From Nocardioides sp. (lineage in GTDB: Bacteria > Actinomycetota > Actinomycetes > Propionibacteriales > Nocardioidaceae), in contig JAOPXM010000094.1 in assembly GCA_025965125.1 (NCBI GenBank), positions 1-50,456 on the forward strand: a DNA stretch of 50,456 bases, given 5' to 3'. Position 1 is the first letter of the stretch. Every line of letters starts with the position of its first letter. Below the pieces are notes generated by a model. It was not told the DNA's origin. It was given only the letters and a program-made list of their open reading frames with translations, and did no database searches. Below, piece after piece: positions 14,154-28,244 of the stretch. Made by a program: the position numbers and the translations under genes.

Positions 14154-14606
14154 GTGACGCTGTACGCCGCCTACGGGACCAATCTGGATCCGGCCAGGAT
14201 GGGCGAGCGTTGCCCCCACTCTCCCCTGCGCACCACCGGCTGGCTCACGGGGTGGCGACTCACGTTCGGCGGTGAGGAGCACGGCTGGGACGGGTCCCTG
14301 TCGACCATCGTCCAGGACCCGCTCGACCAGGTCTTCGTGGCCGTCTACGACATCACCCGGGAGGACGAGCAGCAGCTCGACGGCTGGGAGGCGGCCGACT
14401 CCGGGCTCTACCGCAAGACCAAGGTCCGGGTCAGCACGATGACCGGGGAGATCGTCGTGTGGACCTACGTGCTCGACGGCTACGAGGGCGGCCTCCCTTC
14501 GGCGTCGTACCTCGGCGTGCTGGCCGACGCCGCGGAGGCGGCGGACGCCCCCGACGACTATGTGGCCGCGTTGCGCCGGCGCCCCTGCCGCTCGACCGGG
14601 CTCTGA
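14154..14606 (+). CDS. Gamma-glutamylcyclotransferase-fold (AIG2-like) protein
   Basis: A 150-residue protein of the gamma-glutamylcyclotransferase fold: the N-terminal [13 protein letters not shown] is the family's Y-G-(S/T)-N-x-x substrate loop, and an acidic residue in the EQQLDGWEA segment is in the place of the catalytic Glu. Related enzymes release 5-oxoproline from gamma-glutamyl amines or trim other amino-acid adducts; the substrate here is unknown. Its position between lpdA/lpd and punA matches Rv3304 of M. tuberculosis, which I recall as the same family. The GTG start is supported by the -10 box 7 nt upstream; the open frame upstream is only antisense to lpd. Confidence 0.82.
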
Positions 14607-14709
14607 GCTGTCGCTCGTCGCGAGGATCCGGACACCGCCGTGCACTGACGGCGGCTCGTGAACATGTGACCCAGTCGACACCGGAGCCGTCAAACGCGAT
14701 TTCCACCCC

Positions 14710-14715
14710 TAGGAT
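14710..14715 (+). promoter_or_regulatory. -10 box of leaderless promoter for punA
   Basis: TAGGAT, 7 nt before the GTG at 14723, with no Shine-Dalgarno sequence in the gap. It lies 104 nt after the stop of the cyclotransferase-like gene. Confidence 0.6.
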
Positions 14716-14722
14716 CACTGCC

Positions 14723-15529
14723 GTGACCGACGTGAGGACCAGCGCCGACGCGCTTGCCCAGGAAGCCGCCGACCGGCTTCGCGCGCTCACGGGTGTGGAC
14801 CACCATGACGTCGCACTGGTGCTCGGATCCGGTTGGTTGCCCGCGGTCGACGCGCTCGGGGAGGCCACTGCCGAGATCGCGACCACCGACCTGCCCGGCT
14901 TCTCGGCTGCTGCCGTCGCAGGCCATTCCGGGAAGATCCGGTCCGTGCGCGCCGGGGATCGCAACCTGCTCGTGTTCCTGAGCCGGACCCACTACTACGA
15001 AGGCAGGGGCGTGGCCGCGGTCGTGCACCCGGTCCGCACCGCGGCGAAAGCAGGCTGCTCGACCATCGTGCTGACCAACGGCTGCGGTGGGCTCCGGGAG
15101 ACCTGGACCCCGGGGACGCCCGTCCTGATCAGTGACCACATCAACCTCACCGGCTGCTCCCCGATCGAGGGCGCGCACTTCGTCGACCTCACCGACCTCT
15201 ACAGCAGTCGACTTCGTGCGATGTGCCGCGAGATGGACCCCAGCCTCGACGAGGGCGTCTACGTTCAGTTTCCCGGCCCCCACTATGAGACTCCCGCCGA
15301 GATCGGCATGGTCCGGGCGATCGGGGGTCACTTGGTGGGCATGAGTACGACGCTGGAGGCCATCGCAGCCCGCGAGGCGGGCATGGAGGTGCTCGGGATC
15401 AGCCTGGTCACGAACCTGGCCGCCGGGATCAGCGGCGAGCCCCTCGACCACGAAGAGGTCCTCGAAGCCGGGCGCGCTGCGGCATCGAGGATGGGTGACC
15501 TGCTCGGCAAGATCGTGCCGGGGATCTGA
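14723..15529 (+). CDS. punA: Purine nucleoside phosphorylase (trimeric, PNP/MTAP family)
   Basis: A 268-residue phosphorylase that splits purine nucleosides and deoxynucleosides with phosphate into base and (deoxy)ribose-1-phosphate. Family marks are LVLGSGW near residue 34 (phosphate loop), AGHSGKI, FLSRTHYYEG, TNGCGGL, GPHYETPAEI and the base-binding NLAAGI segment near residue 230. Length fits the low-molecular-mass trimeric class. The GTG start is chosen from the 7-nt -10 spacing and N-terminal homology; a longer open frame upstream overlaps the previous gene. The TetR gene follows after 8 nt and is probably on the same transcript. It feeds the mutase and aldolase genes further along. Confidence 0.93.
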   Translation: MTDVRTSADALAQEAADRLRALTGVDHHDVALVLGSGWLPAVDALGEATAEIATTDLPGFSAAAVAGHSGKIRSVRAGDRNLLVFLSRTHYYEGRGVAAVVHPVRTAAKAGCSTIVLTNGCGGLRETWTPGTPVLISDHINLTGCSPIEGAHFVDLTDLYSSRLRAMCREMDPSLDEGVYVQFPGPHYETPAEIGMVRAIGGHLVGMSTTLEAIAAREAGMEVLGISLVTNLAAGISGEPLDHEEVLEAGRAAASRMGDLLGKIVPGI

Positions 15530-19629: not shown

Positions 19630-21285
19630 ATGAGCCGTCCCGAGCTGGCAGACCTCCTCGACCGTGCCCACGCCTGGGCAGCCGAGGACCCCGACGACCA
19701 GACCCGTGCCGAGCTCGAGGCGGCGGTCGCCGCGGTAGCCGATGGCGGCGACCCCGGGGACCTGGCCGACCGCTTCGACGGCACCCTCGAGTTCGGGACG
19801 GCGGGGCTGCGCGGAGCACTGGGCGCCGGTCCGAACCGGATGAACCGGGTCGTGGTGACGAGGGCGGCGGCCGGCCTGGCCGCCTACCTGAAGGACAACG
19901 GCGCTCCTCGGGAGGCCGCGGTCGTCATCGGCTACGACGCGCGGCACAACTCCGCCGTGTTCGCACGCGACACCGCCGAGGTGATGACCGGGGCCGGCAT
20001 CAAGGCCTGGGTGCTGCCGCGTCCCCTGCCCACCCCGATCCTGGCGTTCGCGATCCGCGAGCTCGGCTGCGTGGCCGGGGTGATGGTGACGGCGAGCCAC
20101 AACCCACCGGAGGACAACGGTTACAAGGTCTATCTCGGGGACGGCAGCCAGATCGTGCCACCGGCAGACGCGCAGATCGCGGCCCGGATCGCGGCGGTCG
20201 GTCCCCTGGGCGGCGTCCCGCGCGGGTCGGGTGGCACGGTCCTCGGCGAGGACATCGTCGACCGCTACCTGGACACGGTCGCCGACCTTGCGGTCGACGG
20301 CCCGCGCGACCTCGACGTCATCTACACCCCGCTGCACGGCGTGGGCGGCACTTCCGTGGTCCAGGTGCTCGAGACCGCGGGATTCGGTCCACCTCGGGTC
20401 GTCAGCGAGCAGGAGGTCCCGGATCCCGACTTCCCAACGGTCTCGTTCCCCAACCCCGAGGAGCCCGGGGCGATGGATCTGGCGCTCGGCCTCGCGGAGA
20501 AGTACGGCGCGGACCTCGTCGTCGCCAACGACCCCGACGCCGACCGGTGCGCCGCCGCCGTGCCCGGCCCGCACGGGTGGCGGATGCTGCGCGGCGACGA
20601 GGTCGGCGCCCTCCTGGCCCACCAGCTCCTGACCGCGGGCAAGCAGGGCACCTACGCCACCTCGATCGTGTCCTCGAGCCTGCTGGGGAAGATGGCCGCA
20701 GCCCACGGGCAGCCGTACGTCGAGACCCTGACGGGCTTCAAGTGGATCGGTCGGGTCGAGGGTCTGGCGTTCGGCTACGAGGAGGCGCTCGGCTACTGCG
20801 TCGACCCCGAGCACGTGAAGGACAAGGACGGAGTCTCCGCCCTGCTGCTGCTCTGCGAGCTGGCCGCGAACGCCAAGGCTGCCGGGCGCGGCCTGACCGA
20901 CCTCCTCGACGACATCGCGGCGGAGCACGGCCTGCACGCGACCGACCAGCTGTCGGTCCGGGTCACGGACCTGGCCGAGATCGCCGCGGCCATGGAGCGC
21001 CTGCGCCGTACCCCGCCCGCCGAGCTCGGCGGCCTGGTCGTCGAGGGCATCGACGACCTCGCCGCTGGTTCCGCAGACCTCCCTCCGACCGAGGGCCTGC
21101 GTTACCGGCTCGCTGACGGCGCGCGCGTCATCGTGCGGCCGAGCGGCACGGAGCCCAAGCTCAAGTGCTACCTCGAGGTGGTCGTCCAGGTGCGTCCCGA
21201 GGACGGCGTCGACGCCGCCCGGATCGCCGCCGCCGGTCGTCTCGACGCCCTCCGCAACGCCATCAAGGCGGCCGCCGGCATCTAG
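19630..21285 (+). CDS. pmmB: Phospho-sugar mutase (phosphopentomutase/phosphoglucomutase type)
   Basis: A 551-residue alpha-D-phosphohexomutase of the PGM2-like class. It has all four domain signatures: LEFGTAGLRG near residue 57, the phosphoserine loop TASHNPPEDNGYK near residue 155, the metal loop NDPDADR near residue 300 and the phosphate-binding RPSGTEPKLKCY near residue 500. The M. tuberculosis neighbour of punA is pmmB. In this setting the most useful reaction is converting (deoxy)ribose-1-phosphate from punA/deoA to the 5-phosphate used by deoC, as human PGM2 does; this is inferred from context and class. The ATG is supported by a -10 box 6 nt upstream. Confidence 0.92.
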   Translation: MSRPELADLLDRAHAWAAEDPDDQTRAELEAAVAAVADGGDPGDLADRFDGTLEFGTAGLRGALGAGPNRMNRVVVTRAAAGLAAYLKDNGAPREAAVVIGYDARHNSAVFARDTAEVMTGAGIKAWVLPRPLPTPILAFAIRELGCVAGVMVTASHNPPEDNGYKVYLGDGSQIVPPADAQIAARIAAVGPLGGVPRGSGGTVLGEDIVDRYLDTVADLAVDGPRDLDVIYTPLHGVGGTSVVQVLETAGFGPPRVVSEQEVPDPDFPTVSFPNPEEPGAMDLALGLAEKYGADLVVANDPDADRCAAAVPGPHGWRMLRGDEVGALLAHQLLTAGKQGTYATSIVSSSLLGKMAAAHGQPYVETLTGFKWIGRVEGLAFGYEEALGYCVDPEHVKDKDGVSALLLLCELAANAKAAGRGLTDLLDDIAAEHGLHATDQLSVRVTDLAEIAAAMERLRRTPPAELGGLVVEGIDDLAAGSADLPPTEGLRYRLADGARVIVRPSGTEPKLKCYLEVVVQVRPEDGVDAARIAAAGRLDALRNAIKAAAGI

Positions 21286-21360: not shown

Positions 21361-21948
21361 CTAGACCAAGAGGCTGATCACGAACGCCAGTGTCGCGACG
21401 GCGAGCGCGGCGATCTCGGGCCAGGCAAGCTGTCGACGAACTCCTTCCGCCAGGGCAGCCTGCTCGTCTGAGTAGCTCTGGATCCCGCGCTTGGCGCGCT
21501 CGTCGTCGCAGCGCTGCCGGATCCGCTGCTCCACGAAGTCGGGATAGCTCGCGAGCGCTGCATCGACCGGCACCGCGGTGTTCCGCTTGTTGGACTTGAT
21601 GGTCTGCCGCCAGCTCCGACCAACGGCAGGCGAGACGTAGCGGTCCGCGCCGGCGCGGACCGCGAGCACCTGGCGTACCGCGATCTCCTCGATCGAGGCC
21701 AGCGGGATCGACACCGTGTCGAGCATGTTGCGCAGCACGAGGTGGTCCTCGGTCACCGACACCCGCGGGCGCAGGGTCGAGGCCCACACCAGCACTCCCA
21801 CGACGAGCGCCCCGGTCAGCACCGGACCGGGGATGGCGCCGCGGTCCACGATCCCGATCACCACGATCGCGAGCGCCACGGCCAGCCCGATCCCACCCGT
21901 GATTCGCCCGCTCGTGGGGCGGAAGCGCTCCACCGGCTCGTCACTCAC
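21361..21948 (-). CDS. Membrane-anchored PH-domain protein
   Basis: A 195-residue protein with two hydrophobic segments near residues 18-35 and 42-57, then a PH-like domain from about residue 60 (RPRVSVTEDHLVLRNMLDTVSIPLASIEEI), a charged stretch and a final membrane segment at the C-terminus (IAALAVATLAFVISLLV). The PH-type module is also seen in the genes at 1253 and 1741, but sequence similarity between them is low. Function unknown. The GTG start has a -10 box exactly 7 nt upstream that overlaps the -10 of divergent deoC. Confidence 0.75.
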   Translation of the reverse strand: MSDEPVERFRPTSGRITGGIGLAVALAIVVIGIVDRGAIPGPVLTGALVVGVLVWASTLRPRVSVTEDHLVLRNMLDTVSIPLASIEEIAVRQVLAVRAGADRYVSPAVGRSWRQTIKSNKRNTAVPVDAALASYPDFVEQRIRQRCDDERAKRGIQSYSDEQAALAEGVRRQLAWPEIAALAVATLAFVISLLV

Positions 21949-21955
21949 GCGGCCA

Positions 21956-21961
21956 ACCCTA
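21956..21961 (-). promoter_or_regulatory. -10 box of leaderless promoter for the PH-domain gene at 21948
   Basis: TAGGGT on the minus strand, 7 nt before the GTG at 21948. Its last two bases of territory (21960-21961) are shared with the -10 box of deoC on the other strand. Confidence 0.6.
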
Positions 21962-21965
21962 TGCT
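21960..21965 (+). promoter_or_regulatory. -10 box of leaderless promoter for deoC
   Basis: TATGCT, 7 nt before the ATG at 21973. It overlaps the divergent -10 box by two bases. Confidence 0.6.
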
Positions 21966-21972
21966 GGGGCGC

Positions 21973-22959
21973 ATGGCCTCATCCCCCACCACCGACGCGC
22001 CATCGGCCGGCGCCCGAGGTCAGGGCTGGGACTTCTCGGACGTCACGCACTCCGATGCGACCCTGCGCCGCTTCCTCCACGGCCTGCCCGGTGTCGACCA
22101 GGTCGGTGCCGACGCCCGGGCCGCGGCCCTGGGCACCCGATCCATCAAGACCACGGCCAAGGCGTTCGCAATCGACCTCGCGATCCGGATGGTGGACCTG
22201 ACCACCCTCGAAGGAGCCGACACCGCCGGCAAGGTGCGCGCTCTCGCGTCCAAGGCGATGCGTCCCGACCCGTCCGACCCGACCTGCCCGGCCACAGCCG
22301 CGGTCTGTGTCTACCCCGACATGGTCGCCACCGCCCGGCAGACCCTCGGCACGAGCGGCGTGCACGTCGCCGCGGTGGCGACGGCGTTCCCCAGCGGACG
22401 TGCCGCCCTCGACATCAAGCTGGCCGACACGCGTGACGCCGTCGAGGCGGGCGCCGACGAGATCGACATGGTCATCGACCGCGGCGCCTTCCTGTCCGGG
22501 CGCTACCTCCAGGTCTTCGAGGAGATCGTCGCGGTCCGCGAGGCGTGCGGCGGGGCACACCTCAAGGTGATCTTCGAGACCGGCGAGCTCCAGACCTATG
22601 ACAACGTACGACGCGCCAGCTGGCTCGCGATGATGGCCGGCGGCCACTTCATCAAGACCTCCACGGGCAAGGTGCAGCCGGCAGCGACCCTGCCGGTCAC
22701 GATGATCATGCTGGAGGCGGTGCGCGACTTCCGCGAGGCGACCGGGCGGATGGTCGGCGTCAAGCCCGCCGGCGGCATCCGCAGCAGCAAGGACGCGATC
22801 AAGTACCTCGTCGTCGTCAACGAGGTCGCCGGCAACGACTGGCTCGACCCGGACTGGTTCCGGTTCGGGGCCTCCACCCTGCTCAACGACCTGCTCATGC
22901 AGCGCACCAAGATGCGCACCGGCCGCTACTCCGGTCCCGACTACTTCACGCTGGACTGA
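21973..22959 (+). CDS. deoC: Deoxyribose-phosphate aldolase
   Basis: A 328-residue class I aldolase that cleaves 2-deoxyribose-5-phosphate to glyceraldehyde-3-phosphate and acetaldehyde. Marks: VCVYPDMV near residue 110, the Schiff-base Lys in GGHFIKTSTGK near residue 218 and the second active-site Lys in VGVKPAGGIR near residue 260. It is longer than the E. coli enzyme (259 residues) by an N-terminal extension, as in other actinobacteria and in eukaryotes. The ATG at 21973 is preferred over an in-frame ATG at 21961, because the latter lies inside the -10 box. The ALDH genes directly downstream can remove the acetaldehyde. Confidence 0.95.
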   Translation: MASSPTTDAPSAGARGQGWDFSDVTHSDATLRRFLHGLPGVDQVGADARAAALGTRSIKTTAKAFAIDLAIRMVDLTTLEGADTAGKVRALASKAMRPDPSDPTCPATAAVCVYPDMVATARQTLGTSGVHVAAVATAFPSGRAALDIKLADTRDAVEAGADEIDMVIDRGAFLSGRYLQVFEEIVAVREACGGAHLKVIFETGELQTYDNVRRASWLAMMAGGHFIKTSTGKVQPAATLPVTMIMLEAVRDFREATGRMVGVKPAGGIRSSKDAIKYLVVVNEVAGNDWLDPDWFRFGASTLLNDLLMQRTKMRTGRYSGPDYFTLD

Positions 22960-22962
22960 TCC

Positions 22963-24465
22963 GTGGTGACTGACAAGAACGCGGCAGGGACTGCCGCAAC
23001 CACTGAGGAAACAGGCGACCACGAGATGAAAAGCAACGTCTTCACCTACGCCCCGGCTCCCGAGTCGCGCAGCATCGTCGACATCAAGGCGTCGTACGGC
23101 CTGTTCGTGAACGGCGAGTTCGTCGATGGCGCCGGGAAGGCGTTCAAGACGATCAACCCCGCCACCGAGGAAGTTCTCGCCGAGGTCGCCGAGGCCGACG
23201 AGGCCGATGTCGACAGGGCGGTGAAGGCGGCGCGACGGGCCTACGACCGGGTCTGGTCGAAGCTGTCCGGTCGCGAGCGCGCCAAGTACCTCTACCGGAT
23301 CGCCCGGATCATCCAGGAGCGCAGCCGCGAGCTGGCGGTGCTCGAGTCGATCGACAACGGCAAGCCGATCAAGGAGTCGCGCGACGTCGACGTCCCGATC
23401 GTGGCGGCGCACTTCTTCTACTACGCGGGCTGGGCCGACAAGCTCGAGTACTCCGGGTACGGCGGCGGCAACCCCCAGCCGCTCGGGGTGGCCGGTCAGA
23501 TCATCCCGTGGAACTTCCCCCTGCTGATGCTGGCCTGGAAGATCGCCCCCGCCCTGGCCTGCGGCAACACCGTCGTCCTCAAGCCGGCCGAGACGACCCC
23601 GCTGACCGCGCTGCTCTTCGCGGAGATCTGCCAGCAGGCCGACCTGCCTCCCGGCGTCGTCAACATCATCACCGGTGCAGGCGAGACCGGGCGGGCCCTG
23701 GTCTCGCACCCCGATGTCGACAAGGTCGCGTTCACCGGATCCACCGACGTCGGCAAGGCCATCGCCCGCGCCGTCGCCGGGACCGAGAAGAAGATGACAC
23801 TCGAGCTCGGCGGCAAGGCGGCGAACATCGTCTTCGACGATGCCCCCATCGACCAGGCCGTCGAGGGGATCGTGGACGGGATCTTCTTCAACCAGGGCCA
23901 CGTGTGTTGTGCCGGCTCGCGGCTGCTCGTCCAGGAGAGCGTCGCCGACGAGCTGCTCGAACGGCTCAAGCGACGCATGGCGACGCTGCGGGTCGGTGAC
24001 CCCCTCGACAAGAACACGGACATCGGGGCCATCAACTCCGCGGAGCAGCTCGAGCGCATCCGCGAGCTGTCCGCGGTCGGCGACGCAGAGGGTGCGGAGC
24101 GCTGGTCGCCGCCCGGCGACCTGCCCCAGCACGGGTTCTGGTTCCCGCCGACGATCTTCACCGGCGTCTCGCAGGCACATCGGATCGCGCGCGAGGAGAT
24201 CTTCGGCCCGGTCCTGTCGGTGCTGACTTTCCGCACGCCTGCCGAAGCGGTCGAGAAGGCGAACAACACGCCGTACGGCCTGTCGGCCGGAGTCTGGACC
24301 GACAAGGGCTCGCGGATCCTCAAGATCGCCAACGAGCTCCGCGCCGGGGTTGTCTGGGCGAACACGTTCAACAAGTTCGACCCCACCAGCCCGTTCGGCG
24401 GGTACAAGGAGTCGGGCCATGGCCGCGAAGGCGGCCGCCACGGACTGGAGGGCTACCTCAAGTGA
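22963..24465 (+). CDS. Aldehyde dehydrogenase (NAD-dependent, complete)
   Basis: A 500-residue aldehyde dehydrogenase with every catalytic element: IPWNFPLLM (oxyanion Asn) and KPAETTP near residues 183-215, FTGSTDVGK cofactor loop, ELGGKAA (general base Glu) near residue 285 and FFNQGHVCCAGSR with the nucleophile Cys near residue 310. It starts 3 nt after deoC, so acetaldehyde from deoxyribose-5-phosphate is the natural substrate; this is inference. Two adjacent GTG codons at 22963 and 22966 and an ATG at 23026 are all possible starts; conserved sequence begins after the ATG. The stop overlaps the start of the truncated homologue. Confidence 0.93.
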   Translation: MVTDKNAAGTAATTEETGDHEMKSNVFTYAPAPESRSIVDIKASYGLFVNGEFVDGAGKAFKTINPATEEVLAEVAEADEADVDRAVKAARRAYDRVWSKLSGRERAKYLYRIARIIQERSRELAVLESIDNGKPIKESRDVDVPIVAAHFFYYAGWADKLEYSGYGGGNPQPLGVAGQIIPWNFPLLMLAWKIAPALACGNTVVLKPAETTPLTALLFAEICQQADLPPGVVNIITGAGETGRALVSHPDVDKVAFTGSTDVGKAIARAVAGTEKKMTLELGGKAANIVFDDAPIDQAVEGIVDGIFFNQGHVCCAGSRLLVQESVADELLERLKRRMATLRVGDPLDKNTDIGAINSAEQLERIRELSAVGDAEGAERWSPPGDLPQHGFWFPPTIFTGVSQAHRIAREEIFGPVLSVLTFRTPAEAVEKANNTPYGLSAGVWTDKGSRILKIANELRAGVVWANTFNKFDPTSPFGGYKESGHGREGGRHGLEGYLK

Positions 24466-25346
24466 ATGCCGCACCGTCGGCTCGAATCGACGTTCGCAAG
24501 ACCTACAAGCTCTACATCGGTGGGGCGTTCCCGCGCTCGGAGTCGGGCCACTCCTACGCCGTGCACGACACGAAGGGAGCCTTCGTGGCCAATGCCGCGC
24601 TGGCCTCCCGCAAGGACGCCCGCGACGCCGTCACGGCGGCCCGCAAGGCGTTCCCGGGCTGGTCCGGGCGGACGGCGTACAACCGCGCCCAGATCCTCTA
24701 CCGCGTCGCCGAGGTCATGGAGGACCGCCGCCCGCAGTTCCTCGAAGCCGTGCGGCAGTCCGAGGGCCTGAGCGCCGCTCGGGCAGAGAAGGCGGTGGAC
24801 GAGGCGATCGACCGCCTTGTCTGGTACGCCGGCTGGGCCGACAAGATCACCCAGGTCGTCGGCAACGCCAACCCAGTGGCCGGCCCGTTCTTCAACCTCT
24901 CGACCGCCGAGCCGACCGGTGTCGTCGCGGTGCTCGCGCCCCAGACGTCGTCGTTGCTCGGCCTCATCCACGTCGTCGCCCCCGCCGTCGTCACCGGCAA
25001 CACCGCCGTCGTGGTGTCGTCGTACGAGCGACCGCTGCCGGCGGTGACGTTCGCGGAGGTGCTGGCGACGTCCGACGTTCCGGGCGGGGTGGTCAACATC
25101 CTCACAGGCTCCGCGGCCACGATCGGCCCCTGGCTGGCCTCGCACATGGACGTCAACGGCATCGACCTGACCGGCATCGCCGGTGACACCGACCTGGCGA
25201 CGGCCCTGGAGGTCGCTGCCGCCGACAACCTCAAGCGCGTACGCCGACCGCCGACCGCCGAGCCCGACTGGACGCTGGATCCCGGCACCGGGCCGATGAC
25301 GGCGTTCCTGGAGACCAAGACCGTCTGGCACCCCATCGGGGTCTAG
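24462..25346 (+). CDS. Half-length aldehyde dehydrogenase homologue without catalytic residues
   Basis: A 294-residue protein homologous to the N-terminal, cofactor-domain half of aldehyde dehydrogenases (YKLYIGGAFPRSESGHSY start, FPGWSGRTAYNRAQILYR, GGVVNILTGS). The oxyanion IPWNFP is replaced by LAPQTS, the NAD-binding KPAE by VSSYE and the GST loop by GIAGD, and the whole catalytic domain with Glu and Cys is absent. It ends with an unrelated tail. It is not a decayed pseudogene: codon use is normal and its GTG overlaps the stop of the complete dehydrogenase (GTGA). It most resembles the inactive second half of ALDH16, and probably binds the complete enzyme. Confidence 0.85.
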   Translation: MNAAPSARIDVRKTYKLYIGGAFPRSESGHSYAVHDTKGAFVANAALASRKDARDAVTAARKAFPGWSGRTAYNRAQILYRVAEVMEDRRPQFLEAVRQSEGLSAARAEKAVDEAIDRLVWYAGWADKITQVVGNANPVAGPFFNLSTAEPTGVVAVLAPQTSSLLGLIHVVAPAVVTGNTAVVVSSYERPLPAVTFAEVLATSDVPGGVVNILTGSAATIGPWLASHMDVNGIDLTGIAGDTDLATALEVAAADNLKRVRRPPTAEPDWTLDPGTGPMTAFLETKTVWHPIGV

Positions 25347-25351
25347 CGCCC

Positions 25352-26347
25352 TCAGCGCAGGACGACCCTGACGACCCGGTCCGTGAGCGAGGGGGACTCA
25401 CCACCGACCAGGTAGGCGCCGTCTGGGCCTACCGCGACCGCGGAGTCGGACAACGGACGCGGCAGCCGGCCGGCCCGGGTGAAGGACCGCGAGGCCGGGT
25501 CGAACCACCACATGCGAGCGGTGACGGCCGTCGAGGCGGTCCTGCCTCCGACGAGCAGGATGCGCGCGCCGAGCGCCACGGCCGACGCGTGGCCCAGCGC
25601 CTGCGGGAGCCGGGCCACGACCCGCGCCCGACCCGACGCGTCGACCCGCTGCACCGCGGTCTGCATGACGCCGGCACGCTCACCACCGAAGAGCCAGACG
25701 GCGTGCCCCCGCGCGACACCGGCTGCGTAGCGAACGGGCACCGGGAGGTTGCCCAAGGCCCGCCAATGGGCGCCGTCCGTGCTGGCGAGCACGGACGGGA
25801 CGGCGACGGTCGTGGCGTCGTACCCACCCAGCACCAGGGCCAGCGGCCCGACCACGGCCGTGGTGAGGTCTGACCGCGGCTGGGGCAGATGGCCCGCGAC
25901 CGACCACCGCTTGCCGATCCGGACCTGAACAACGTCCTGCTCGGTGGCGTTGCCGCCGCCCACCACCAGGAGCCTGCCCTGAAACGCGATTCCGGCAGTG
26001 TCATGGACGGGGACCGCCAACGGGGCGGCCGCCCGGGTGTGTCCTGTCCCGGGGTCGAGCGTGAAGACTTGGTCGGTCGACCGGTCACCCGCGACCAGTC
26101 CACCGGCCACGACGAACGAGCCCGAGACGGGCACGACGGCCTCGCGGGCCAGTGGGTACGGCAGCCGCCACGGCTCCGTGGCAACGACCAGGCGCTGCGG
26201 GGCGGGTGCCCGAGTGGGATCGGTCGTCTTCGTGCTCCCGGAGCTCGGGGGGTTCGGCGCTGCGGGCTCCGGGGCGTGGGCGCCCGAGCACCCCTGCATG
26301 AGGAGCATCATCGCGATGGCCAGCACGGCCGCCGGACGTGGCCTCAT
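25352..26347 (-). CDS. Kelch-type beta-propeller lipoprotein
   Basis: A 331-residue exported protein with a lipobox LLMQGC at about residue 20, a Pro/Thr-rich linker to about residue 55 and then five or six Kelch-like repeats (for example RLLVVGGGNAT, LALVLGGYDAT, AVWLFGGER, RILLVGGRTAS, GAYLVGGES), each with the double glycine of Kelch blades. It should sit on the outer face of the membrane as a small propeller. The ATG overlaps the stop of the preceding propeller gene (ATGA). Ligand unknown. Confidence 0.82.
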   Translation of the reverse strand: MRPRPAAVLAIAMMLLMQGCSGAHAPEPAAPNPPSSGSTKTTDPTRAPAPQRLVVATEPWRLPYPLAREAVVPVSGSFVVAGGLVAGDRSTDQVFTLDPGTGHTRAAAPLAVPVHDTAGIAFQGRLLVVGGGNATEQDVVQVRIGKRWSVAGHLPQPRSDLTTAVVGPLALVLGGYDATTVAVPSVLASTDGAHWRALGNLPVPVRYAAGVARGHAVWLFGGERAGVMQTAVQRVDASGRARVVARLPQALGHASAVALGARILLVGGRTASTAVTARMWWFDPASRSFTRAGRLPRPLSDSAVAVGPDGAYLVGGESPSLTDRVVRVVLR

Positions 26348-27552
26348 CGGAGATTGCCCGTGTGGCCCAGGGAGTAGCGCCCCGGTTGTGGCCAGACGAG
26401 CAGCCCGTGCGGGTTGCCGCCGACCCAGATCTTGGCGACCAGCCTGCCGGTCCGGGTGTTCCACCCGTAGACGTAGCCGTCGTATCGACCGGAGAGCCAC
26501 AGGGTCCTGCCGTCGGCCGAGAGCCCTCCCATGTCCGGACTCCCCCCGCCGGGGACCGACCAGGTCTTCACGACTCGGTGCCGGGCCAGGGAGAACACGC
26601 TGACCTTTCCGGCGCCACGGTCGGAGACGTAGAGGAACCGGCCATCGCGACTCGGGTAGATGCCGTGGGGCATGGCGGGGAGCGGCGTGGACCCGATGAT
26701 CCGGAGCTTGCGCCACCCGATCTGCAGCAGTCGGTTCCGGTCCATGTCGGCGACGTAGAAGGATCGGCCGTCCGGAGCCAGCCGGACGTCCTGCGGCTTG
26801 CTGCCAGGACCCAGGTTGAGGTGTCCGACGATGCGCTGGCCCAGCGTCGAGATCTTGAGCAGGGAACCGCTGAACTCACAGGTCACGAGGAAGTAGCGGC
26901 CGTTCGCGGAGAAGTCGGCATGGTTGGGTCCGTCGCACGTGCGGTCGCTGACCGCCCGCTGCGCACGGAACCGGTGGGGGTCGGCGAAGACGATCCTTTG
27001 GTGCTCCTCGTCCATGACGACCGCGTGCCGGCCGTCGGGCGTGAAGTAGAGGTTGTACGGCCGGTCCACGGGGTAGCGCCTCAAGAGCTGGCCGGAGCGC
27101 GGGTCGAGCACGTCGATCTGGTTGCTGCCGCTGGCCTCGACGTAGAGCCGAGACAGGTCGTACGACGGGGTCACGTGCTGCGAGAGCACTCCCGTGTGCA
27201 GGACTCGCACCACCTTGCGCGTGCGCTGGTCGATGACGGTGGTGATCGGCGCGCCGTACGAGTTCGGCACGTAGAGGTACGCGGCCGCGCGGGCAACACG
27301 CGGTTTCATGTGCGAGGGCCGCGTCGCCGCATACACGTTGTTGCCCCGGCTGGGTGGCATGCCCGGGAGGCGGTGGCGGAAGGGTGCGGCGACGAGTCGG
27401 GGCGCCGGGCTCGCCGGGGTCGCCGAGGACGCCCGGCCCGCGGCCGGTCCGCTGGGCCGCTCCACGGGACTCGACGTGCATGAGGCCCCGAAGGCGCCCA
27501 CGCAGACGGCGATCGCGCACGCACCGACTCGGGCGCGGCCGACACGACTCAT
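26344..27552 (-). CDS. YncE/YVTN-type beta-propeller protein, probable lipoprotein
   Basis: A 402-residue exported protein: N-terminal hydrophobic segment ending GASC near residue 25 (an imperfect lipobox), a Pro/Ala-rich linker and then a seven-bladed propeller with YVTN-like repeats (AYLYVPNSYG, SRLYVEASGSN, RSFYVADMDRN, RFLYVSDRG, RTLWLSGRYDG). Two cysteines in the RTCDGPN and LVTCEFS segments could pair. It is the first gene of a two-gene unit with the Kelch lipoprotein, which overlaps it by 4 nt. The minus-strand upstream region has TATCGT about 40 nt before the ATG and GGGGAG as ribosome binding site. Confidence 0.82.
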   Translation of the reverse strand: MSRVGRARVGACAIAVCVGAFGASCTSSPVERPSGPAAGRASSATPASPAPRLVAAPFRHRLPGMPPSRGNNVYAATRPSHMKPRVARAAAYLYVPNSYGAPITTVIDQRTRKVVRVLHTGVLSQHVTPSYDLSRLYVEASGSNQIDVLDPRSGQLLRRYPVDRPYNLYFTPDGRHAVVMDEEHQRIVFADPHRFRAQRAVSDRTCDGPNHADFSANGRYFLVTCEFSGSLLKISTLGQRIVGHLNLGPGSKPQDVRLAPDGRSFYVADMDRNRLLQIGWRKLRIIGSTPLPAMPHGIYPSRDGRFLYVSDRGAGKVSVFSLARHRVVKTWSVPGGGSPDMGGLSADGRTLWLSGRYDGYVYGWNTRTGRLVAKIWVGGNPHGLLVWPQPGRYSLGHTGNLR

Positions 27553-27632
27553 CCGGACTGCTCCCCTCTGGCTGGGTCCCTCCCGAGACGATAGTGAACC
27601 GAACCTGCAAACAAGCAGGGCAGAATGAGCCG

Positions 27633-28244
27633 GTGCGCTCCCGGGTGATCGTCCTTGCCGGCCCCTCGGGGTCGGGCAAGTCGCGACTCGCGGAACGGGT
27701 CGGCCTGCCCGTGCTGCGGCTCGACGACTTCTACAAGAGCGGTGGCGATCCGACGCTGCCCCGGATCACCCACGGTGCCAATGCCGGCATCCCCGACTGG
27801 GACCACCCCGACTCCTGGCTCCTGGCCGACGCGCTCACCGCGATCGAGGCACTGTGCCGCGACGGCAGGGCCGAGGTGCCGGTCTACGACATCGCCCACG
27901 ACGGACGCAACGGCTCGCACGTCCTCGACCTGGACGGCCACGACCTCTTCGTCGCAGAGGGCATCTTCGCCGAGGATGTCGTGCCGTACTGCCTTGAGCG
28001 TGACCTGCTGGCCGCCGCCTTCTGCCTTCGCCAGCACCCGGCCATCACGTTCTGGCGTCGACTCACGCGAGACCTGCGCGAGCACCGCAAGCCGCCCCTG
28101 GTGCTCGTCAGGCGCGGGCTGGCGCTGATGCGTGACCAGAAGCGGGTCGTCGGGCGCGCGGTCAGCCGCGGCTGCGACCCGGTCACACCCGAGCAGGCGC
28201 TGGCCGCGATCCGGCTGCTTGCTGACGAGGACGCCCGCCGGTGA
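27633..28244 (+). CDS. Uridine-kinase-like P-loop kinase
   Basis: A 203-residue nucleoside/nucleotide kinase-fold protein: Walker A GPSGSGKSRLA at residue 10, then RLDDFYKSGGDPTLP, DWDHPDSW, VPVYDIAHDGR and VAEGIFA, the same order as in uridine kinases. It would phosphorylate uridine/cytidine, which fits the salvage genes nearby, but the C-terminal half is divergent and other substrates are possible. Start is uncertain: GTG at 27633 or GTG at 27645; neither has a good ribosome binding site. The next gene overlaps its stop (GTGA). Confidence 0.78.
   Translation: MRSRVIVLAGPSGSGKSRLAERVGLPVLRLDDFYKSGGDPTLPRITHGANAGIPDWDHPDSWLLADALTAIEALCRDGRAEVPVYDIAHDGRNGSHVLDLDGHDLFVAEGIFAEDVVPYCLERDLLAAAFCLRQHPAITFWRRLTRDLREHRKPPLVLVRRGLALMRDQKRVVGRAVSRGCDPVTPEQALAAIRLLADEDARR

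Follow-up and report, generated by a model that had tools for sequence, protein, structure and literature searches.

The 50,456-nucleotide stretch analysed here (the window) comes from a Nocardioides sp. genome (assembly GCA_025965125.1, contig JAOPXM010000094.1) and carries, just downstream of deoC, two overlapping genes for relatives of aldehyde dehydrogenases (ALDHs). Comparison of their sequences identifies the two products, here called P1 and P2, as a two-gene counterpart of ALDH16, in which the same two parts follow each other in the same order. While P1 is a catalytic ALDH subunit, P2 would be an ALDH stripped of its catalytic domain and reduced to a fold resembling the nicotinamide adenine dinucleotide (NAD)-binding one, an oligomerisation hairpin and the C-terminal strand. 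With a probability of roughly 80%, P1 and P2 are the separately made halves of an ALDH16-type enzyme, with P2 docked on P1, that oxidises the acetaldehyde produced by DeoC.

Correspondence of P1 and P2 to the halves of ALDH16

Both genes lie on the plus strand, P1 at 22963..24465 and P2 at 24462..25346 (294 residues from a GTG). As the initial annotation had it, the two reading frames, which differ, share the four nucleotides GTGA (24462..24465), within which P2 starts and P1 stops. A Shine-Dalgarno-like GGAGGG, recognised by eye, lies inside the P1 gene at 24447..24452 on the same strand, 9 nucleotides 5' of the P2 start, and translation of the overlapping genes may be coupled. The start of P1 is uncertain: counted from the GTG at 22963 the protein has 500 residues, from the ATG at 23026 it has 479, and because sequence matches to homologues mostly begin at about residue 20–27, the ATG appears at least as likely.

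The claim that the longer protein has all catalytic residues held: Asn184, Lys207, Glu281 and Cys315 (500-residue numbering; Cys315 codon at 23905..23907, plus strand) are identical in 84/84 homologues encoded separately from their partner (split) and 125/125 homologues fused to it, the latter comprising 121 distinct sequences since four loci are present twice. P2, in turn, had been described as a catalytically empty N-terminal ALDH fold. The emptiness is borne out. P2 matches the Pfam Aldedh model at positions 12–232 of 461 only and lacks the region of the catalytic Glu and Cys because the catalytic domain is missing; among 94 split-type partners, the position of the NAD-binding Lys holds Val (42), Leu (30), Ile (17), Ala (4) or Thr (1) and never Lys, and the oxyanion Asn is found in a single one. 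Yet P2 is more than an N-terminal fold, as its last residues, ETKTVWHPIGV, correspond to the C-terminal strand of ALDHs.

The family libraries searched do not distinguish ALDH16 from other ALDHs. P1 and P2 share their top match in the PDB, the single 767-residue ALDH16 chain of entries 6MVR and 6MVU, which together with 6MVS and 6MVT we take to represent ALDH16 from Loktanella sp. P1 aligns with residues 11–475 of 6MVR at 526 bits, the next family being ALDH1A2 (437 bits), an ordinary ALDH1/2-type enzyme with which P1 has the fold and the catalytic residues in common. P2 aligns with residues 499–766 of 6MVU at 160 bits and with its N-terminal half at only 56 bits; the best ordinary ALDH reaches 113 bits in an alignment that ends at P2 residue 260. 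Profile scores of the window P2 agree, with 244 bits for fused ALDH16 C-termini (a profile built from 136 sequences, 132 of them distinct), 127 for split catalytic N-terminal halves, 123 for five ordinary ALDHs and 86 for fused N-terminal halves. For all 94 split-type partners, the fused-C-terminus profile was the highest-scoring of the four. The initial annotation had called for a comparison of P2 with ordinary ALDH N-termini and with ALDH16 C-termini, and the latter won on both counts (160 versus 113 bits; 94/94 partners). We reject a plain N-terminal ALDH fragment, given this profile and the retained C-terminal strand.

The pair therefore contains a catalytically complete ALDH domain and a second, ALDH-like domain that is devoid of a catalytic domain and homologous to the ALDH16 C-terminus. 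By a strict test it stands outside ALDH16 because it does not form one polypeptide: ALDH16 is a single 767-residue chain, with a linker of about 22–33 residues in fused relatives, whereas the window holds two open reading frames (ORFs) and belongs to a clade of its own. Human ALDH16A1, a member of that family with a matching domain plan, is likewise a single chain, unlike P1–P2. The human protein has been described as a pseudoenzyme without catalytic residues (available part of PMC10650815), residues that P1 does have. The literature searched, which misses most subscription journals and included the available parts of PMC8160307, PMC8346489, PMC4207490 and PMC10650815, yielded neither a two-gene ALDH16 nor a link between ALDH16 and deoC among the titles, abstract openings and passages listed.

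Complementary loss of oligomerisation elements

In a classic ALDH, each subunit has its catalytic domain packed against the hairpin and the C-terminal strand of the adjacent subunit, and every subunit of an ordinary ALDH1/2-type enzyme carries all three of these elements. In the window, these elements are divided between two proteins. At the hairpin site, P1 has only a short turn (residues 161–172; 23443..23478, plus strand), which measures 11–12 residues in 83/84 split catalytic homologues versus 15–20 in five ordinary ALDHs of the window genome. The predicted P1 model lacks both the hairpin strand and the C-terminal strand, and the protein ends at the very point where the latter should start; unlike an ordinary ALDH, the catalytic subunit thus has neither element of its own. 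P2 retains the hairpin (residues 129–150; 24846..24911, plus strand), which is 22 residues long in 94/94 split-type partners, as well as the C-terminal strand (residues 283–291; 25308..25334, plus strand). In its confidently predicted model, the hairpin strands span residues 135–138 and 143–151 and the C-terminal strand residues 283–291, and the model aligns structurally with the NAD-binding and C-terminal parts of ALDHs, through to their C-termini (VIA-align). Model and alignment also give P2 the Rossmann-type C-terminal domain with a protruding beta-flap that characterises ALDH16. As judged from sequences and predicted models, the losses are complementary, P1 being devoid of hairpin and C-terminal strand and P2 keeping both in the absence of a catalytic domain. 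ALDH16 relatives are built alike, with a catalytic half that has no hairpin and a C-terminal half with hairpin and tail, and the extra domain of ALDH16 mimics the classic inter-subunit packing within a single chain (available part of PMC8160307).

Given these complementary losses, the hairpin and strand of P2 most likely pack on the P1 catalytic domain, in the manner of the two subunits of a classic ALDH dimer. Two such P1–P2 units may then pair into a P1(2)P2(2) particle shaped like the classic ALDH tetramer.

Distribution, linkage and history of the two architectures

We surveyed Actinomycetota (the phylum of the window), Pseudomonadota, Verrucomicrobiota, Spirochaetota and SAR324. Within Actinomycetota, full-length P2, called at a chosen cut of E ≤ 1e-70, occurred in 71/296 genomes; 157/296 had a match at 1e-20, and the weaker matches listed mostly end at about P2 residue 240–261 and resemble ordinary ALDHs. 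A profile search placed P2 in 84/396 Actinomycetota genomes. Including the window, 79 actinobacterial loci (78 plus 1) were inspected, and the two genes are separate in 77/77 resolvable ones, the remaining two having no upstream sequence; gene-order figures below refer to 76 of these split loci, with L072 (our locus handle), also split, outside that set. The closest named relative of the window P2, at 68 percent identity, is that of Nonomuraea gerenzanensis, where deoC, P1 and P2 encode 312, 472 and 281 residues.

Pseudomonadota show the opposite architecture. A full-length C-terminal domain was detected in 40/349 genomes at 41 places, all in open frames of 779–889 residues, and all 38 of these places examined as loci are fused; three further genomes have weaker, partial matches. 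The best 80 of at least 587 relatives in a scan of genome contigs, mostly Rhodobacterales, are fused without exception (four of the 80 also appear under other handles). L110 and L155 are likewise fused, as single ORFs of 773 and 778 residues. One fused locus, L109, stems from a record titled Nocardioides marinus DP1N28-1 and carries a Rhodobacteraceae-type deoC–ALDH16 block (GC content 64.6 percent) with 82 percent DNA identity to Ruegeria locus L167, pointing to a mislabelled or mixed assembly, or to transfer. In SAR324, 20/52 genomes are carriers and 14/14 examined loci are fused, with the catalytic domain only partly in the same frame in L217, L281, L283, L286 and L290. Both forms coexist in the other two phyla: 15/145 Verrucomicrobiota genomes are carriers and, counting a locus from the scan, 13 of 16 loci are split and three fused, while 4/100 Spirochaetota genomes comprise an adjacent pair (L234), two unlinked pairs (L235, L236) and a fused gene (L239). 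On sequence grounds, the separate-gene form is hence a clade spread over several phyla rather than a local split, and conservation of the arrangement in several phyla excludes a chance origin.

Linkage of the two genes varies widely. P2 could begin in overlap with the P1 stop in 60/76 split actinobacterial loci, at offset -3 in 32, -7 in 17, 0 in nine and other values in two, where the start nearest to -3 was taken, which favours overlap counts. In split Verrucomicrobiota, 12–1853 nucleotides separate the P1 stop from the partner match, and in the unlinked Spirochaetota, whose P1 proteins have 71–72 percent identity, the two genes lie either on separate contigs or some 670 kb from each other, both being kept. 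By eye, the intervening sequence holds an ORF of 447–463 residues resembling POT-family transporters in L220, L223 and L225, a GxxExxY-like ORF in L228, L229 and L231 (all Verrucomicrobiota) and, in actinobacterial L059, a 322-residue metallophosphoesterase-like ORF within a gap of about 1.4 kb.

This variability bears on the idea that a programmed frameshift at the overlap yields one ALDH16 chain from both frames. The short overlap, the different frame of P2 and the existence of a fused form elsewhere would suit such a mechanism. It is nevertheless highly improbable and we reject it, as neither frame offset nor overlap is constant (the 76 loci fall into frame classes of 46, 26 and 4), gaps reach 1853 nucleotides, some with intervening ORFs, and two genomes have the genes unlinked.

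Across 296 Actinomycetota genomes, 68 have both genes, three P2 only, one P1 only and 224 neither, and the four one-gene genomes are all cut at contig ends. Since 68/72 carriers have both genes and the unlinked Spirochaetota retain both as well, the partner is retained alongside the catalytic subunit regardless of whether the two genes adjoin. It would thus be very surprising if P2 were the decaying remnant of a tandem ALDH duplication: the loss of its catalytic residues and domain would fit decay, but P2 is full-length in several phyla, with 33 invariant residues across 63 sequences, and co-occurs with P1. Conservation, co-occurrence and retention in unlinked form equally contradict a pseudogene. 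Besides, catalytic and partner distances correlate beyond what deoC explains (partial r of 0.63 in 82 split pairs and 0.59 in 43 fused proteins), a co-variation that fits physical contact without proving it.

Trees of 66 catalytic and 69 partner domains each show two clades, one split and one fused, so that the architecture changes only once; Shimodaira–Hasegawa-like approximate likelihood ratio (SH-aLRT) supports are 97 and 95 (catalytic) and 92 and 99 (partner). Both trees were built quickly, and their outgroup branches are few and long. Fused Verrucomicrobiota and Spirochaetota group with the proteobacterial type, while the split ones fall inside the actinobacterial group in the catalytic tree and beside it in the partner tree. 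This grouping suggests transfer. Because the root lies between the two clades, fission and fusion are equally possible; the proposal of a split ALDH16 in the initial annotation is hence supported by the PDB and profile matches as to the two-gene form, whereas the direction implied by "split" is not given by the trees. Tentatively, one may imagine that two separate proteins were the original state and ALDH16 arose by fusion, that both forms strictly require the half subunit for their assembly and that DeoC and P1–P2 make up one acetaldehyde-handling unit, a scenario we regard as doubtful. If true, it would make the ALDH16 family the aldehyde-oxidising partner of deoxyribose-phosphate aldolase.

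The deoC neighbourhood and its implications

The gene preceding P1 on the plus strand is deoC, for deoxyribose-phosphate aldolase (21973..22959, with the start at 21961 or 21973; TIGR00126 at 172.8 bits against a cutoff of 117.3, for ORF 21742–22959). Further upstream on the same strand lie a phospho-sugar mutase (19630..21285; Pfam PGM_PMM I–IV), whose substrate we infer and which possibly performs the phosphopentomutase step, and a purine-nucleoside phosphorylase (14459..15529; TIGR01698 at 329.8 bits, cutoff 302.6). Together, these genes would order a pathway from the phosphorylase via the mutase and DeoC to P1–P2, in which DeoC would release acetaldehyde and P1–P2 oxidise it to acetate. 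Downstream, a Kelch-repeat ORF and a beta-propeller ORF on the minus strand (25352–27552) face the end of the operon, and ORF 27354–28244 has a P-loop and looks by eye like a uridine kinase, possibly of nucleoside salvage, with no NCBIfam match at 1e-10.

The association with deoC recurs in both architectures. Upstream and on the same strand, deoC is present in 71/76 split Actinomycetota loci, at a median of 10 nucleotides from the P1 match (more than 500 in six); four of the other five are cut at contig ends, and L048 shows no deoC in the stretch examined. It also accompanies 13/13 split Verrucomicrobiota, 37/38 Pseudomonadota (the remaining one near a contig end), 77/80 scan loci (the other three at contig ends) and 9/14 SAR324 loci, and precedes ALDH16 in Loktanella salsilacus (L108) as it does P1 in the window. 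Conversely, none of 11 other ALDHs of the window genome has deoC beside it within the stretch examined. A comparable pairing of a DeoC-type aldolase with an ALDH occurs in loci for putative sugar-phosphate-utilising microcompartments that contain DeoC, where, unlike in our reading of the window, the ALDH possibly forms acetyl-CoA within a shell locus (available part of PMC4207490).

Acetaldehyde from deoxyribose-5-phosphate is accordingly the likeliest substrate. The pair might instead serve another aldehyde of nucleoside or sugar catabolism, and none of the 25 NCBIfam families listed for P1 (46 matched) reaches its own cutoff, which leaves room for this idea. We consider it rather unlikely, as deoC precedes most split and fused loci and acetaldehyde is the DeoC product.

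The deoC neighbourhood also bears on the suggestion that P2 is a structural or targeting subunit. P2 could mainly serve regulation, targeting or channelling as an adaptor (to DeoC, for example), bound to P1 yet dispensable for its fold; evolution is faster in P2 than in P1 (mean distances of 0.67 and 0.40 in 82 split pairs), and deoC adjoins most pairs. Still, the parts that P2 keeps are the oligomerisation elements absent from P1, Spirochaetota retain the pair while the stretches examined there show no deoC, and the partial correlation between partner and deoC given the catalytic subunit is low (0.26). Sequences and models hence favour the structural role over targeting, and the adaptor is an unlikely alternative.

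On the other hand, several observations speak against an ALDH16-type P1–P2 enzyme acting on DeoC-derived acetaldehyde. In L062, a loop of 20 residues occupies the hairpin site of the catalytic subunit; 6MVR is absent among the 50 structure matches listed for the P2 model, which excludes nothing; and by sequence alone, the P2 tail clearly matches only some ordinary ALDHs (90/376 tests versus 12/376 with shuffled sequences). Given the partner, the partial correlation between catalytic domain and DeoC is 0.41 in split and 0.74 in fused systems, the latter exceeding the catalytic–partner value of 0.59, so that the partner does not stand out in these distance correlations. Besides, L085 (Actinomycetota, split) has an interrupted catalytic frame next to an intact partner, and only the last ~90 catalytic residues are in frame with the intact partner in L232 (Verrucomicrobiota, fused). 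Sequencing error or decay could account for either interruption. Finally, deoC was not found in the stretches examined around the split Spirochaetota genes, at L048 or in 5/14 SAR324 loci (some at contig ends), which makes the deoC link weaker than the pair itself.

The role of the ALDH16 family and of its extra domain is unsettled. As the natural two-gene form allows removal and add-back of P2 without cutting a protein, the role of this domain becomes directly testable, and L235 and L236 provide a natural test of P2 function in trans. The pair is also an example of a catalytic subunit and its inactive relative each having lost parts that the other retains. Moreover, deoC beside both forms gives the ALDH16 family a concrete pathway, namely deoxynucleoside breakdown. 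This neighbourhood is suggestive, too, for human ALDH16A1, a protein of likewise unsettled role, including that of its extra domain, which has been connected both with gout and with HPRT1, an enzyme of purine salvage (available part of PMC10650815).
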